A stretch of 64,000 nucleotides of DNA from Chitinophagaceae bacterium IBVUCB1 (GTDB lineage: Bacteria > Bacteroidota > Bacteroidia > Chitinophagales > Chitinophagaceae), in assembly GCA_002127285.1 (NCBI GenBank), contig NFUW01000001.1, positions 756,057 through 820,056 of the forward strand. The letters run 5' to 3'. The notes under the pieces were generated by a model that searched no databases, was not told the DNA's origin, and saw nothing but the letters and a program-made list of their open reading frames with translations. Numbering within the stretch: position 1 is the stretch's first letter; every line of letters begins with the position of its first letter. Below are positions 17,608 through 29,741 of the stretch, piece after piece. A program made the translations under genes and the position numbers.

Positions 17608-18315
17608 TTAGTTGGCTACCCCTACCGTGGCTATGCTGACGGTAGCATGGGGGATGGTGAGCAATGCCTGTGCACATGCCTCAAGGGTAGCACCTGTGGT
17701 CAACACATCGTCTATCAGCAGAAAGTGCTTGCCTGTGTAGTTGGTCGTATCTTTTACTGCAAATGCGCCTACCATATTACTAATGCGCTCTTCGCGGGTT
17801 TTCTGTGTCTGGCTGTCGGTGTGGCGGGTACGGTATAGCAGGCTACCCAATACAGGCAGTTGCAGCACTTCGCCCATACCCTCGGCTATCAGTTGGGTTT
17901 GGTTGTAGCCACGCTGCGCTTCTTTAGCAGGGTGCAGGGGTACGGGTACTATATAATCTATACCCTTGTGCCAGTTGAGCTGCTGCAAATCGTAGCCCAA
18001 TTGCTTGCCCAGATAGATACCAATTTCTTTTTTATCATCGTATTTGAGCCCGTGTAACAGGTGTTGCAACAAACCATCGGCAGTGAAGTAGGCAAATGAT
18101 GTAGCCCTGACGACAGGTACGCGCCCTGCAAAGCGCATATAAGTTTCATTCTCGGCTATGTGGTGATAGGCAGTGCGTGGCAAGTTGAAGACATTGCAGT
18201 TAAGGCAAAGCACTTCTTCCTCTGCCAATAAAGATTTGCTGCAACCCTCGCAAAGTCGGGGGTAGAAGAGAGAGCCGAGCCCTAGCGCGAAATCTTTCAT
18301 TATATTACCCGACAT
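17608..18315 (-). CDS. comF: ComF family phosphoribosyltransferase-like protein
   Basis: A 235-residue ComFC homologue. The N-terminal zinc-binding part has 'LCEGCSKSLLAEEEVLCLNC' (about residues 20-40). The C-terminal phosphoribosyltransferase fold carries 'GYNQTQLIAEGMG' and the PRPP loop 'FLLIDDVLTTGATLEACA'. Such proteins support DNA uptake and recombination in competent bacteria; their enzymatic role is unproven. The ATG at 18315 has a plausible AGGA site 5 bp upstream and overlaps the preceding gene by 11 bp; an ATG at 18300 (starting 'MKDFALGLG') is an alternative. It runs in the same direction as radA, consistent with a DNA-processing cluster. Confidence 0.9.
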   Translation of the reverse strand: MSGNIMKDFALGLGSLFYPRLCEGCSKSLLAEEEVLCLNCNVFNLPRTAYHHIAENETYMRFAGRVPVVRATSFAYFTADGLLQHLLHGLKYDDKKEIGIYLGKQLGYDLQQLNWHKGIDYIVPVPLHPAKEAQRGYNQTQLIAEGMGEVLQLPVLGSLLYRTRHTDSQTQKTREERISNMVGAFAVKDTTNYTGKHFLLIDDVLTTGATLEACAQALLTIPHATVSIATVGVAN

Positions 18316-18856: not shown

Positions 18857-20227
18857 TTAAAACAACCCCCTATACACATCTTCTACTTTGTTCACGGTCT
18901 TTATTTCTATTTTATAGTTTTTCTTGTCCAAGCCTTTTGCATTTGCTTTTGGTATAAATATTACATCCATGCCCAGTTTGTCGGCTTCGGCTATGCGTTG
19001 GTCTATGCGGTTCACGGCGCGTATCTCTCCGGATAAGCCTATCTCTCCCACGAGGCATATATTACTTGGTAGTGCTTTGTCTTCGTAAGACGAAAGCAAA
19101 GCACATACTACTGCCAACTCTATACTCGGGTCTTCTATCTTCAGCCCGCCTGCTATGTTTACAAATACATCGCGCGTACCAAAATGGAAACCACCGCGTT
19201 TTTCCAGCACGGCTAGTAGTAATTGCAACCTGCGCAAATCGAGCCCGCTAACGGTGCGTTGCGGTGTACCATATACCGCCTGTGTTACCAATGCCTGCAC
19301 TTCTATCATCAGCGGGCGCGCGCCTTCCATTGTACTTGCAATGGCGATACCACTCAATGGCTCGTCGTGCTGCGATAATAATATCTCTGACGGATTGCTG
19401 ACAGGGCGCATACCGTTGGTTACCATTTCATATATACCAAGTTCGGATGTGCTGCCGAAACGATTTTTGATAGTACGTAGTATGCGGTAGGCATAGTGCC
19501 TGTCGCCCTCAAATTGCAATACGGCATCTACCATGTGCTCCAGCACCTTAGGCCCTGCAATGGCACCGTCTTTGGTTATATGCCCTATGATGAAGATGGG
19601 GATGTTAGTTGCTTTGGCAAATCGCTGCAACTCTGCCGCACACTCACGCACTTGCGATACGCTGCCTGCCGCACTTTCTACATATGGCGACTCCAGCGTT
19701 TGTATCGAATCTATTATCAGCATTTGCGGGCGCACTTTTTTTACTTCCTGAAAAAGTGTGTTGGTATCTGTTGCCGTCAGCAAGTACATATTGGGGTTAT
19801 TGGCACCTACTCTATCGGCTCGTAGTTTTATCTGTTGCGCGCTCTCCTCTCCCGATACATAGAGTGTTGTAATATTTTTCCATTGCAAGGCGCATTGCAG
19901 AAACAAAGTTGACTTACCAATACCGGGCTCGCCTGCTACCAGTATTACAGAACCGGGCACTAAGCCACCACCAAGTACTCTGTTCAGTTCAGCATCGGGT
20001 GTTTGCAGGCGTAGCTCTTTTTGTATTACCAACTCATCCAGCTTGTGTGCTTTGCGCTGCTCTTTGCTTTCATCTTCCCAACCTGCTATGGGTTTTTGTT
20101 TATCATCGCGCTGTATCACTTCTTCTACAAACGAATTCCACGAACCGCATGACGGGCACTTACCCGCCCACTTAGGAGATTCGTATCCGCATTGCTGACA
20201 GAAGAAAGCTGATTTGATTTTTGCCAT
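18857..20227 (-). CDS. radA: DNA repair/branch-migration ATPase RadA
   Basis: A 456-residue protein with normal RadA length and layout. A C4 zinc finger lies at residues 10-27 (Cys10, 13, 24, 27). The RecA-like ATPase has Walker A 'GEPGIGKST' at 99-107 and Walker B 'MLIIDSIQTL'. The RadA-specific 'KNRFGSTSE' motif follows. The C-terminal Lon-protease-like domain includes 'VNIAGGLKIEDPSIELAVVCA' in sense and 'GLSGEIRAVNRIDQRI'. It promotes branch migration in homologous recombination and helps process stalled forks. The gene is preceded by a leader with a terminator-like hairpin. Confidence 0.96.
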   Translation of the reverse strand: MAKIKSAFFCQQCGYESPKWAGKCPSCGSWNSFVEEVIQRDDKQKPIAGWEDESKEQRKAHKLDELVIQKELRLQTPDAELNRVLGGGLVPGSVILVAGEPGIGKSTLFLQCALQWKNITTLYVSGEESAQQIKLRADRVGANNPNMYLLTATDTNTLFQEVKKVRPQMLIIDSIQTLESPYVESAAGSVSQVRECAAELQRFAKATNIPIFIIGHITKDGAIAGPKVLEHMVDAVLQFEGDRHYAYRILRTIKNRFGSTSELGIYEMVTNGMRPVSNPSEILLSQHDEPLSGIAIASTMEGARPLMIEVQALVTQAVYGTPQRTVSGLDLRRLQLLLAVLEKRGGFHFGTRDVFVNIAGGLKIEDPSIELAVVCALLSSYEDKALPSNICLVGEIGLSGEIRAVNRIDQRIAEADKLGMDVIFIPKANAKGLDKKNYKIEIKTVNKVEDVYRGLF

Positions 20228-20244
20228 GGCAGGCTAAAGATAAA

Positions 20245-20283
20245 TGAAAAGAAAAAGAGCCATCGGAAGAATCCGCGGCTCTT
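20245..20283 (-). terminator. Terminator-like hairpin in radA leader
   Basis: On the complement, AAGAGCC pairs with GGCTCTT (20283-20277 and 20261-20255), with inner pairs CGGA/TCCG. It is followed by a T-rich run (TTTTTCTTTTC) just 18-28 bp before the radA ATG. It has the shape of an intrinsic terminator but sits between a promoter and its gene, so attenuation or a very short leader RNA is possible. Confidence 0.5.
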
Positions 20284-20315
20284 ACTTACTAACCCATTAA
20301 ATTCACAACTTGATA

Positions 20316-20323
20316 CAAATGTA
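20316..20323 (-). promoter_or_regulatory. -7 box of radA promoter
   Basis: The complement reads TACATTTG, a full TAnnTTTG match, about 90 bp upstream of the radA ATG. A T-rich stretch lies in the -33 zone but no clean TTTG. A transcript from here would contain the hairpin at 20255-20283. Confidence 0.5.
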
Positions 20324-20628
20324 ATATTCTCTCCGACAGGAAAAAAATGGTTTTATGTTAATCACTTATCTATTTTTTAAATATTAAAATCAGTACACAT
20401 TAAACTATAAATGCTATTTATTGATTTGCAGTATTTTGGCTTATTATTACATTTTTTAAAATCTATTATTCATATAGTATTTATTTAATGTTTATTTATA
20501 AATTTATTATTCATATACATTATTAGTATCATTCAAAAGTCATTTTACGGATATATCGGTAAAAGCATTATTCACTTTTTATGTGGTTTGTACGGTGTAT
20601 TTTGCAGCATTAAAATACCAGATACAAG

Positions 20629-22356
20629 ATGAGCGCAGTATATACACGCATAGAAAAACTAAAAAGGAATTTTTTGCCCGAAGATTTTACGGTAACGACA
20701 TGGGATGCACTGCAACCCTATTTTGATAAATTACTGAGTGATAGTATTGATACAAAAGAAGCGTTGGAAAATTGGTTGCACCACATCAGCGAACTGGAAG
20801 CAGTGATAAGTGAAGACGCCTGCTGGCGACAAATAAACATGACCTGCGATACAACCAACAAAACATACGAAGAAGCATTTACTTATTTCTGCATGGAGAT
20901 AGAACCGAAGATGAAACCTTACTTCTTTGAACTAAATAAAAAAATGCTGGCATCGCCTTTCATCAAAGAACTGGACGAAGCGCAATACTATCCGTACCTG
21001 CGTAGTGTGCGCAACGCGGTAACACTATACCGCGAAGAGAATGTACCCATACAGGCAGAAATGAGCCTGCTGGCGCAGCAATACGGTGTGATATCGGGCA
21101 AGATGACTATAACACACGAGGGCAAGGAATATACACTGCAACAGGCTGCGCGCTTTCTGCAAAACCCCGACAGGCAACTTCGAGAAACAATTTTTGGCAA
21201 AATAGCTGAACGCCGCCTGCAGGATAAAGAAGAACTGAATAACCTTTTCAACCAATTATTAGAGAAGCGCCAACAGGTAGCGGTAAACGCAGGCTTTGAT
21301 AATTACAGGGATTATAAGTTTCGTGAGCTTGGCAGGTTTGACTATACGCCTGCCGATTGCTTTGCTTTTCATGATGCAGTGCGTGAACATATACTACCCC
21401 TGCACAAAATGCTGGTAGAACGCCGCAAGCAAAAACTGGGGCTGGACGTAATGCGCCCGTGGGATAGCGATGCCGAACCGGTGGGTATAGAGCCACTACA
21501 ACCTTTTGAAACTGGTAAGGAATTATCTGACAAAGCGATAGCGGTGTTTGGCAAGCTGGGCGATTATTTCAGTGGCTGCCTCAACACCATGACGGATATG
21601 AAACGTATGGACTTGGAGAGCCGTGTGGGTAAAGCTCCGGGCGGCTATAACTGTCCGCTGGCTGAAACGGGTGTGCCGTTTATATTTATGAACGCCGCAG
21701 GTACGGTGAACGATGTAATAACCATGATGCACGAGGGCGGGCATGCCGTACACTCATTCCTGAGCCATAACCTGCCATTGTCTTCATTCAAAGAATACCC
21801 GATGGAGATTGCCGAACTGGCAAGTATGAGCATGGAACTATTCTCAATGGAGCATTGGGATATTTTCTTCAGCGATAAAGACGAACTGCAACGCGCACAG
21901 ATAGAAGAACTGGAACGTGTGATAAATGTGCTGCCGTGGATAGCTACGATAGATAAATTTCAACACTGGTTATATACCAACCCTGCACATACCAACGAAC
22001 AACGCGAGGCGGAGTGGATGAAGATACTTGGTGAGTTTAGCACGGGGGTAACAGACTGGACTGGCTTTGAAACATACCGCACTCATTTTTGGCAAAAACA
22101 ACTGCACCTGTACGAGGTGCCGTTTTACTATATAGAATACGGCATTGCCCAACTGGGTGCTATTGCCATGTGGCGACAATACCGCGAAAACAAAGAGCAG
22201 GCTTTGGAAAACTATAAAGCTGCACTGGCACTTGGCTATACCAAAACACTGAAAGAACTGTATGCAACAGCAGGCATCCGTTTCGATTTTTCGCCTGCAT
22301 ACGTTGCAGAGCTTGGCAGCTTTGTGAAAGAGAGACTGGTCGAAATGGGTGTGTAA
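20629..22356 (+). CDS. pepF: M3 family oligoendopeptidase F
   Basis: A 575-residue zinc peptidase of family M3. The metal site is 'MHEGGHAVHSFL', with His368, Glu369 and His372 as the HExxH set, and the third ligand Glu about 28 residues on in 'MEIAELASMSMEL'. The substrate-binding tail has 'HFWQKQLHLYEVPFYYIEYG', typical of PepF, where His and Tyr residues line the active site. It degrades short peptides in the cytoplasm; there is no signal peptide. Its length is normal. It stands alone, facing a hypothetical gene. Confidence 0.93.
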   Translation: MSAVYTRIEKLKRNFLPEDFTVTTWDALQPYFDKLLSDSIDTKEALENWLHHISELEAVISEDACWRQINMTCDTTNKTYEEAFTYFCMEIEPKMKPYFFELNKKMLASPFIKELDEAQYYPYLRSVRNAVTLYREENVPIQAEMSLLAQQYGVISGKMTITHEGKEYTLQQAARFLQNPDRQLRETIFGKIAERRLQDKEELNNLFNQLLEKRQQVAVNAGFDNYRDYKFRELGRFDYTPADCFAFHDAVREHILPLHKMLVERRKQKLGLDVMRPWDSDAEPVGIEPLQPFETGKELSDKAIAVFGKLGDYFSGCLNTMTDMKRMDLESRVGKAPGGYNCPLAETGVPFIFMNAAGTVNDVITMMHEGGHAVHSFLSHNLPLSSFKEYPMEIAELASMSMELFSMEHWDIFFSDKDELQRAQIEELERVINVLPWIATIDKFQHWLYTNPAHTNEQREAEWMKILGEFSTGVTDWTGFETYRTHFWQKQLHLYEVPFYYIEYGIAQLGAIAMWRQYRENKEQALENYKAALALGYTKTLKELYATAGIRFDFSPAYVAELGSFVKERLVEMGV

Positions 22357-29710: not shown

Positions 29711-29741
29711 TAGCCCCTGCAATCCGCAGGGGCTATTTTTT
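29711..29741 (+). terminator. Terminator of lepB
   Basis: Hairpin TAGCCCCTGC / GCAGGGGCTA with loop AATCC, followed by T6. The T tract ends only 7 bp before the ATG of the cytochrome gene, which leaves no room for a promoter in between. Confidence 0.9.

Follow-up and report, generated by a model that had tools for sequence, protein, structure and literature searches.

The DNA analyzed here is a stretch of 64,000 nucleotides from Chitinophagaceae bacterium IBVUCB1 (contig NFUW01000001.1, positions 756,057 to 820,056 of the forward strand), hereafter called the window, and the element under study is a putative gene for a small RNA located upstream of radA on the minus strand. Along this strand a full TAnnTTTG box, TACATTTG, is followed by TATC, AAGTTGTGAATTTAATGGGTTAGTAAGT, a hairpin, TTTTTCTTTTC, a second box, TATCTTTA, and the ATG of radA (20227), which lies 88 bp downstream of the first box (coordinates are collected in Table 1). 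The stem of the hairpin consists of 8 + 4 pairs around a single bulged base and includes GAGCC/GGCTC. The 51-nt hairpin stretch folds at -18.0 kcal/mol, while its shuffled versions gave -8.1 ± 2.6 kcal/mol (z = -3.8; 0/200 equally stable). An ungapped terminator scan of 15 kb did not return this hairpin (20283-20255) among its matches, presumably because of the bulge. The preliminary description of the locus had reported a promoter box and a hairpin with a T tail ahead of radA, and both are real.

The start of the predicted RNA was placed at position 20311 because such boxes lie at -12 to -5 in Flavobacterium, according to PMC9723704; the 5′ end is predicted at, or a few nucleotides ahead of, GAAUUUAAUGGG. 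The last T of the first T run (20252) was taken as the RNA end. In the predicted fold (-18.0 kcal/mol), the first 28 nt are unpaired and are followed by the hairpin. A search of window positions 20100-20700 against Rfam 15 gave five weak matches only, all far under the family cut-off, and no Rfam 15 family matched a set of five loci of the element.

The unpaired tail contains a 20-nt core, GAATTTAATGGGTTAGTAAG, present as one copy in the genome of IBVUCB1. With up to two mismatches allowed, the core was found in 128/133 genomes of the family, which we infer to be Chitinophagaceae: 125 matches were perfect and three, all in genus g22, had two mismatches. The named carriers of the element (Taibaiella, Flavipsychrobacter, and Puia) all belong to Chitinophagaceae. 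In other families of the order the core matched 5/263 genomes, always with two mismatches, and reversed-pattern controls matched 9/263. A phylum-wide sample gave 13/14 genomes of the family and 5/381 others, the latter again all with two mismatches. Matches outside Chitinophagaceae are therefore at chance level.

The 107 loci bearing the core or its variant were reduced to 94 distinct loci for counts of the neighbouring signals. A terminator-like hairpin with a T tract directly followed the core in all 94 (8/94 control windows), and a -7-type box, accepted as TAnnTTTG, TAnnTTAG, or TAnTTTTG no more than 24 nt upstream, directly preceded it in all 94 (8/939 control windows). Among 30 aligned loci (genus g22 left out), 19 of the 20 core columns were invariant and the remaining one was at least 90% conserved; across the same alignment the hairpin arms differed between genera. 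A constant tail combined with a varying hairpin fits an RNA whose tail does the pairing and whose terminator is disposable, and not an attenuator. The suggestion in the preliminary description that a short RNA (50-60 nt) is released gained strong support, since box, conserved tail, and terminator form a unit that travels together.

Potential targets became apparent from 11 further two-mismatch core sites in genomes of the family (L157, L158, L171-L179), lying outside the RNA gene. Ten of them were antisense and ended 6-8 nt before an ATG, nine ahead of histone H1-like genes and one ahead of a gene for a SWIB-domain protein; the eleventh (L174) was away from any gene start. These sites had been considered as second copies of the RNA gene, a candidate rejected for the ten because they are antisense sites at gene starts. 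The products of the nine H1-like genes are short, rich in Lys and Ala, and of the MATAKKAAKKAAPKK type. A longer Lys/Ala protein (L369) matched Pfam HC2, the histone H1-like nucleoprotein family, and the short H1-like protein of IBVUCB1 had no Pfam match. Four of the five two-mismatch sites in other families of the order were read, and none of these preceded a Lys/Ala-rich protein.

H1-like genes were then located by a protein-start pattern, independently of the leader site, and 70 loci were read (30 supplied and 40 picked from a longer list with leaders unseen): 42 within the family, 2 in genomes without the RNA, and 26 outside. A filter on composition (K+A+R+P ≥ 0.85), with G194, G048, and G199 excluded, left 21 family leaders from 20 genomes and 16 outside leaders. 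Complementary runs of at least 9 nt were present in 19/21 of the former and 0/16 of the latter; the unfiltered counts were 23/42 and 1/26, and rows falling below the filter gave 3/20 in the family and 1/10 outside. The mean duplex energy of the family leaders was -17.4, against -8.3 ± 1.5 for shuffled cores (0/400 as good), and that of the outside leaders was -6.7, against -7.2. The sites end 6-20 nt before the ATG. The H1-like leader of IBVUCB1 forms 19 pairs around one bulged base, using the AAGUUGU extension that precedes the core. Complementarity to H1-like leaders is far above chance and confined to Chitinophagaceae.

The second recurrent target is ftsZ, and the test was made within the family. 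With each genus represented by a single genome, 78 of 79 genomes yielded the gene. Leaders were taken from 48 of the 78 genomes, 30 supplied and 18 chosen (G267 and G188 among them were already known to bear a site), and 45 remained after exclusion of G034, whose start was missed by the script, G048, which lacks the RNA, and G194, which has a variant core. An uninterrupted complementary run of at least 9 nt within 100 nt was found in 30/45 genera, against a mean of 1.3 with dinucleotide-shuffled cores; the mean duplex energy over 60 nt was -13.4, against -8.7 ± 0.8 (0/400 shuffles as good). Of these 30 sites, 21 end 8-24 nt before the ATG. In IBVUCB1, the target protein was identified as FtsZ by Pfam, and its leader carries TTACTAACCCA at -27 to -17, as in two further species of the genus, and a second stretch, AAATTCACAACT, complementary to the clade-specific 5′ extension. 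Genera differ in the part of the core complement that they use (TTACTAACCCA, ACTTACTAACC, CCATTAAATT, or a 15-nt run in G267), and the flanks are unlike. Such varied sub-segments in unlike flanks fit pairing rather than one fixed motif. Complementarity to ftsZ leaders is far above chance within the family.

Both genes are located away from the RNA gene in the genome of IBVUCB1. Their leaders were ranked against 388 others, drawn from the window together with 400 kb sampled from the genome, with starts set by a crude longest-open-reading-frame rule: the H1-like leader was first of 389 (duplex -21.4) and the ftsZ leader seventh (-17.4). Of the 20 own-genome 15-mer sites fetched, ftsZ (L205) was the one near a recognised start; at L194, a peptidase-like open reading frame begins 30 nt past the 15-mer site. 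In G194, a member of g22 whose core has two changes, the H1-like leader follows the change, pairing more strongly with the altered RNA (-17.9 vs -15.6), but the ftsZ leader does not (see below), so that the evidence for compensatory change in this one genome is mixed. Complementary sites were also found in DUF6496 leaders of two genera, one of which (L456; G005:C83, near contig position 17750) has two in tandem. A second perfect 15-mer in G005, considered as another copy of the RNA gene, turned out to be a DUF6496 leader.

Table 1. Position and basis of the features at the small RNA locus
Feature	Position in the window	Strand	Basis
-7 promoter box of the small RNA, TACATTTG	20316..20323	-	sequence; box in 94/94 distinct loci
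Predicted small RNA, 60 nt, with 28-nt unpaired 5′ tail	20252..20311	-	box position and fold
Conserved 20-nt core GAATTTAATGGGTTAGTAAG, antisense to H1-like and ftsZ leaders	20285..20304	-	single copy, family-wide
Clade-specific 5′ extension AAGUUGU; extra pairs with own H1-like leader, second match in own ftsZ leader	20305..20311	-	
Intrinsic-terminator hairpin	20255..20283	-	fold, presence in relatives
Terminator T run (TTTTT, then CTTTTC)	20252..20256	-	sequence
TATCTTTA box, probable radA promoter, 7 nt ahead of the ATG	20235..20242	-	similar boxes in relatives
radA, downstream neighbour, outside the RNA gene	18857..20227	-	Pfam domains

The element has its own promoter and terminator signals, a conserved unpaired pairing region, and complementarity to several leaders beyond chance, as is characteristic of trans-acting small RNAs. 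Its anatomy, its conservation, its independence from radA (see below), and its complementarity to two recurrent targets, all observed computationally, point to a stand-alone gene for an RNA of about 60 nt that acts in trans by pairing with H1-like and ftsZ leaders, probably repressing them; we put the probability of this reading at roughly 80%. The RNA would be transcribed from its own TAnnTTTG promoter and would end at its own terminator, and about 20 conserved nucleotides of the unpaired 5′ tail would serve as the pairing region. In the cell this tail would pair with leaders of HC2/H1-like and FtsZ mRNAs, mostly in the last 30 nt or so before the start codon, and perhaps also with mRNAs of other Lys-rich proteins (DUF6496, SWIB). 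By covering the region where the ribosome lands, it would repress translation. Translation initiation in Flavobacterium is described in PMC9723704 as independent of Shine–Dalgarno sequences, and hence any block would fall on the leader itself. With both kinds of target repressed, one RNA would tune chromosome compaction and cell division together.

The RNA might instead pair with the same leaders and activate them, for example, by shielding their 5′ ends against degradation. Should the box noted by eye ahead of some H1-like genes be their promoter, the site would span most of the short leader, so that end protection would be possible. However, 21 of the 30 ftsZ sites lie no more than 24 nt from the ATG and the H1-like sites 6-20 nt from it, which is the usual place for repression, and we consider activation unlikely.

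Several observations weigh against a trans-acting repressor of these two targets. The core was not detected in 5/133 family genomes, namely, G199 and G271 (2.3-Mb genomes) and the three members of genus g3 (G048, G230, and G256), and no diverged copy with box and terminator was found near radA in core-less genomes (21 loci scanned). G199 retains the H1-like leader site with no core detected at up to two mismatches, and G048, from the genus without the RNA, retains stretches of 8-9 nt in both leaders. The H1-like leaders of IBVUCB1 and G166 reach just 8 nt, below the 9-nt run, and the strong duplex of the former depends solely on the bulge and the 5′ extension. Among the ftsZ leaders, 15/45 lack a run of at least 9 nt, and nine of the 30 sites are more distant, 34-73 nt ahead of the ATG; in G194 the ftsZ leader fits the changed RNA worse (-12.7 vs -16.4; one genome). 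Single shuffles that retained parts of the core reached 14/21 H1-like and 22/45 ftsZ leaders. Outside the family, the site at L181 ends 5 nt before a plausible open reading frame of 105 aa. The 11-mer TTACTAACCMA before any ATG showed no excess over its reversed control (153 vs 168), and in a sense-orientation control true-looking starts were about equally frequent (8/30 vs 6/30).

Complementary sites of at least 11 nt just before genes were also read by eye in one genome each: ahead of recA (L262, G267), ftsX (L254, G144), rpoD (L243, G166), and a ribonucleotide reductase gene (L234, G084). These are leads that may be chance matches, because the 11-mer survey did no better than its controls.

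The conserved 20-mer could alternatively be a DNA site for a transcription factor near the starts of all these genes, the RNA being incidental. In the RNA gene and, by eye, in a number of H1-like leaders, it does follow a promoter-like box closely. Against this, the RNA gene carries the sequence in the sense orientation, whereas the leaders read for H1-like genes and ftsZ carry it in antisense, and the sense orientation yields no duplex with those leaders. The ftsZ leaders employ different sub-segments with variable internal spacing, and a DNA site would not need the terminator that follows the core at 94/94 loci. We regard a transcription factor site as quite improbable.

The preliminary description had proposed that the hairpin could attenuate radA. 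In this reading, radA would be transcribed from the 20316-20323 box, with the hairpin stopping part of the transcripts. The product of radA has zinc ribbon, AAA/KaiC-like ATPase, and Lon-C domains (Pfam). From 80 radA loci of other species, 79 were used (L006 was dropped, having no upstream DNA). A strong terminator does separate a good box from the ATG of radA, and the 21-nt stretch GAATTTAATGGGTTAGTAAGT (up to one mismatch) was found upstream on the radA strand in 64/79 loci; it was not found in the other 15. Its distance to the radA ATG, however, varies from 74 to 1575 nt, so that, judged by positions only, the element is not always just upstream of radA. In genus g22 the two are unlinked: on a shared contig, the element and radA lie at 940 and 3,635 kb in G194 and at 1,365 and 350 kb in G299, and in G339 they occupy separate contigs. 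A TAnnTTTA/G-type box of radA itself, at -28 to -4, was present in 40/79 loci (52/474 control windows), namely, in 18/20 loci with short spacing to the RNA gene, where it falls between terminator and ATG, and in 22/59 others. No antiterminator structure was seen in single-sequence folds or in an alignment read by eye. The conserved 5′ tail fits the leaders of other genes and not that of radA, which served as a control gene: a complementary run of at least 9 nt was absent from all 42 radA leaders in which the RNA gene is over 130 nt distant. Attenuation of radA was therefore dropped as very improbable, on account of the variable spacing, the unlinked genus, the box of radA itself, and conservation that resides in the tail and not in the hairpin. 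Some read-through into radA may occur in the genus of the window.

A chance terminator of an upstream transcription unit, or a repeat, has a negligible probability: such hairpins are common (23 in 15 kb against 15 expected), but this one is single-copy and conserved family-wide together with box and core.

Other features were observed near these loci. In several metagenome genomes, a palindromic repeat rich in G/C and resembling CCCCTTTAGGGGTTTGGGG was seen by eye at or near the radA start, between the RNA gene and radA (just before radA at L013, L018, L022, L027, L033, and L041-L044; slightly further up at L046); it looks like a dispersed repeat family. In the last 150 nt before radA at L031 and L046, a short duplication includes the first radA codons and, at L031, also the promoter box (by eye). 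Elsewhere in the window, the ungapped scan found a strong, near-symmetric hairpin, terminator-like on both strands (29711-29735).

To our knowledge, few small RNAs of Bacteroidota have known targets, and we know little of how cell division and histone-like proteins are controlled in this phylum. Among the matches listed at the top in word searches of the open-access literature, there was no description of this RNA and nothing on control of cell division and histone-like proteins together in Bacteroidota. The general kind, a trans-acting small RNA that pairs with its targets, is already known, and this particular RNA is apparently undescribed. As far as the literature was searched, ftsZ and histone-like targets joined in one family-wide RNA would be new.

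DicF, a prophage-borne RNA of Escherichia coli, represses ftsZ by pairing at and upstream of its ribosome-binding site, as demonstrated by compensatory mutations; it also has other targets (PMC5069750). The likeness is functional only, a small RNA with the ftsZ leader as a target. DicF originates from a defective prophage, uses its 3′ region for pairing with ftsZ, and Hfq is important for it, whereas the RNA of Chitinophagaceae is chromosomal, family-wide, and predicted to pair through its 5′ end. IhtA of Chlamydia represses translation of the histone-like HctA (PMC4355289), and another small basic protein, DdbA, is also under its control (PMC3469542, PMC8343073). The predicted targets of our RNA are likewise HC2/H1-like and other Lys-rich proteins, again a functional likeness only; in contrast to IhtA, it belongs to a different phylum and would pair upstream of the AUG through an unpaired 5′ tail of about 20 nt. 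Chromosomal small RNAs of the same phylum include Rfp18 (Flavobacterium) and GibS (Bacteroides). Rfp18 is conserved within its genus; it differs in being structured and in affecting metalloprotease mRNAs (PMC9723704), and ftsZ is not mentioned in the text of that paper. EcpR1 of Sinorhizobium, from a different phylum, is a small RNA that acts in trans to modulate regulation of the cell cycle (PMC4414408).

The element occurs in nearly the whole family, and the small set of targets predicted for it concerns two central processes, cell division and chromosome packing. The predicted pairing is long enough to be tested by simple paired mutations. If it holds, DicF–ftsZ and IhtA–HctA, two unrelated systems, would be echoed in one molecule, which would be a striking convergence. 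A broader reading, which we find evenly balanced, is that this near-universal RNA of Chitinophagaceae acts as a core switch of growth or of the cell cycle, setting FtsZ and histone-like proteins (HC2/H1-like, DUF6496, SWIB, and perhaps RecA and others) together; its 5′ seed would then be held constant by the need to match many leaders simultaneously.
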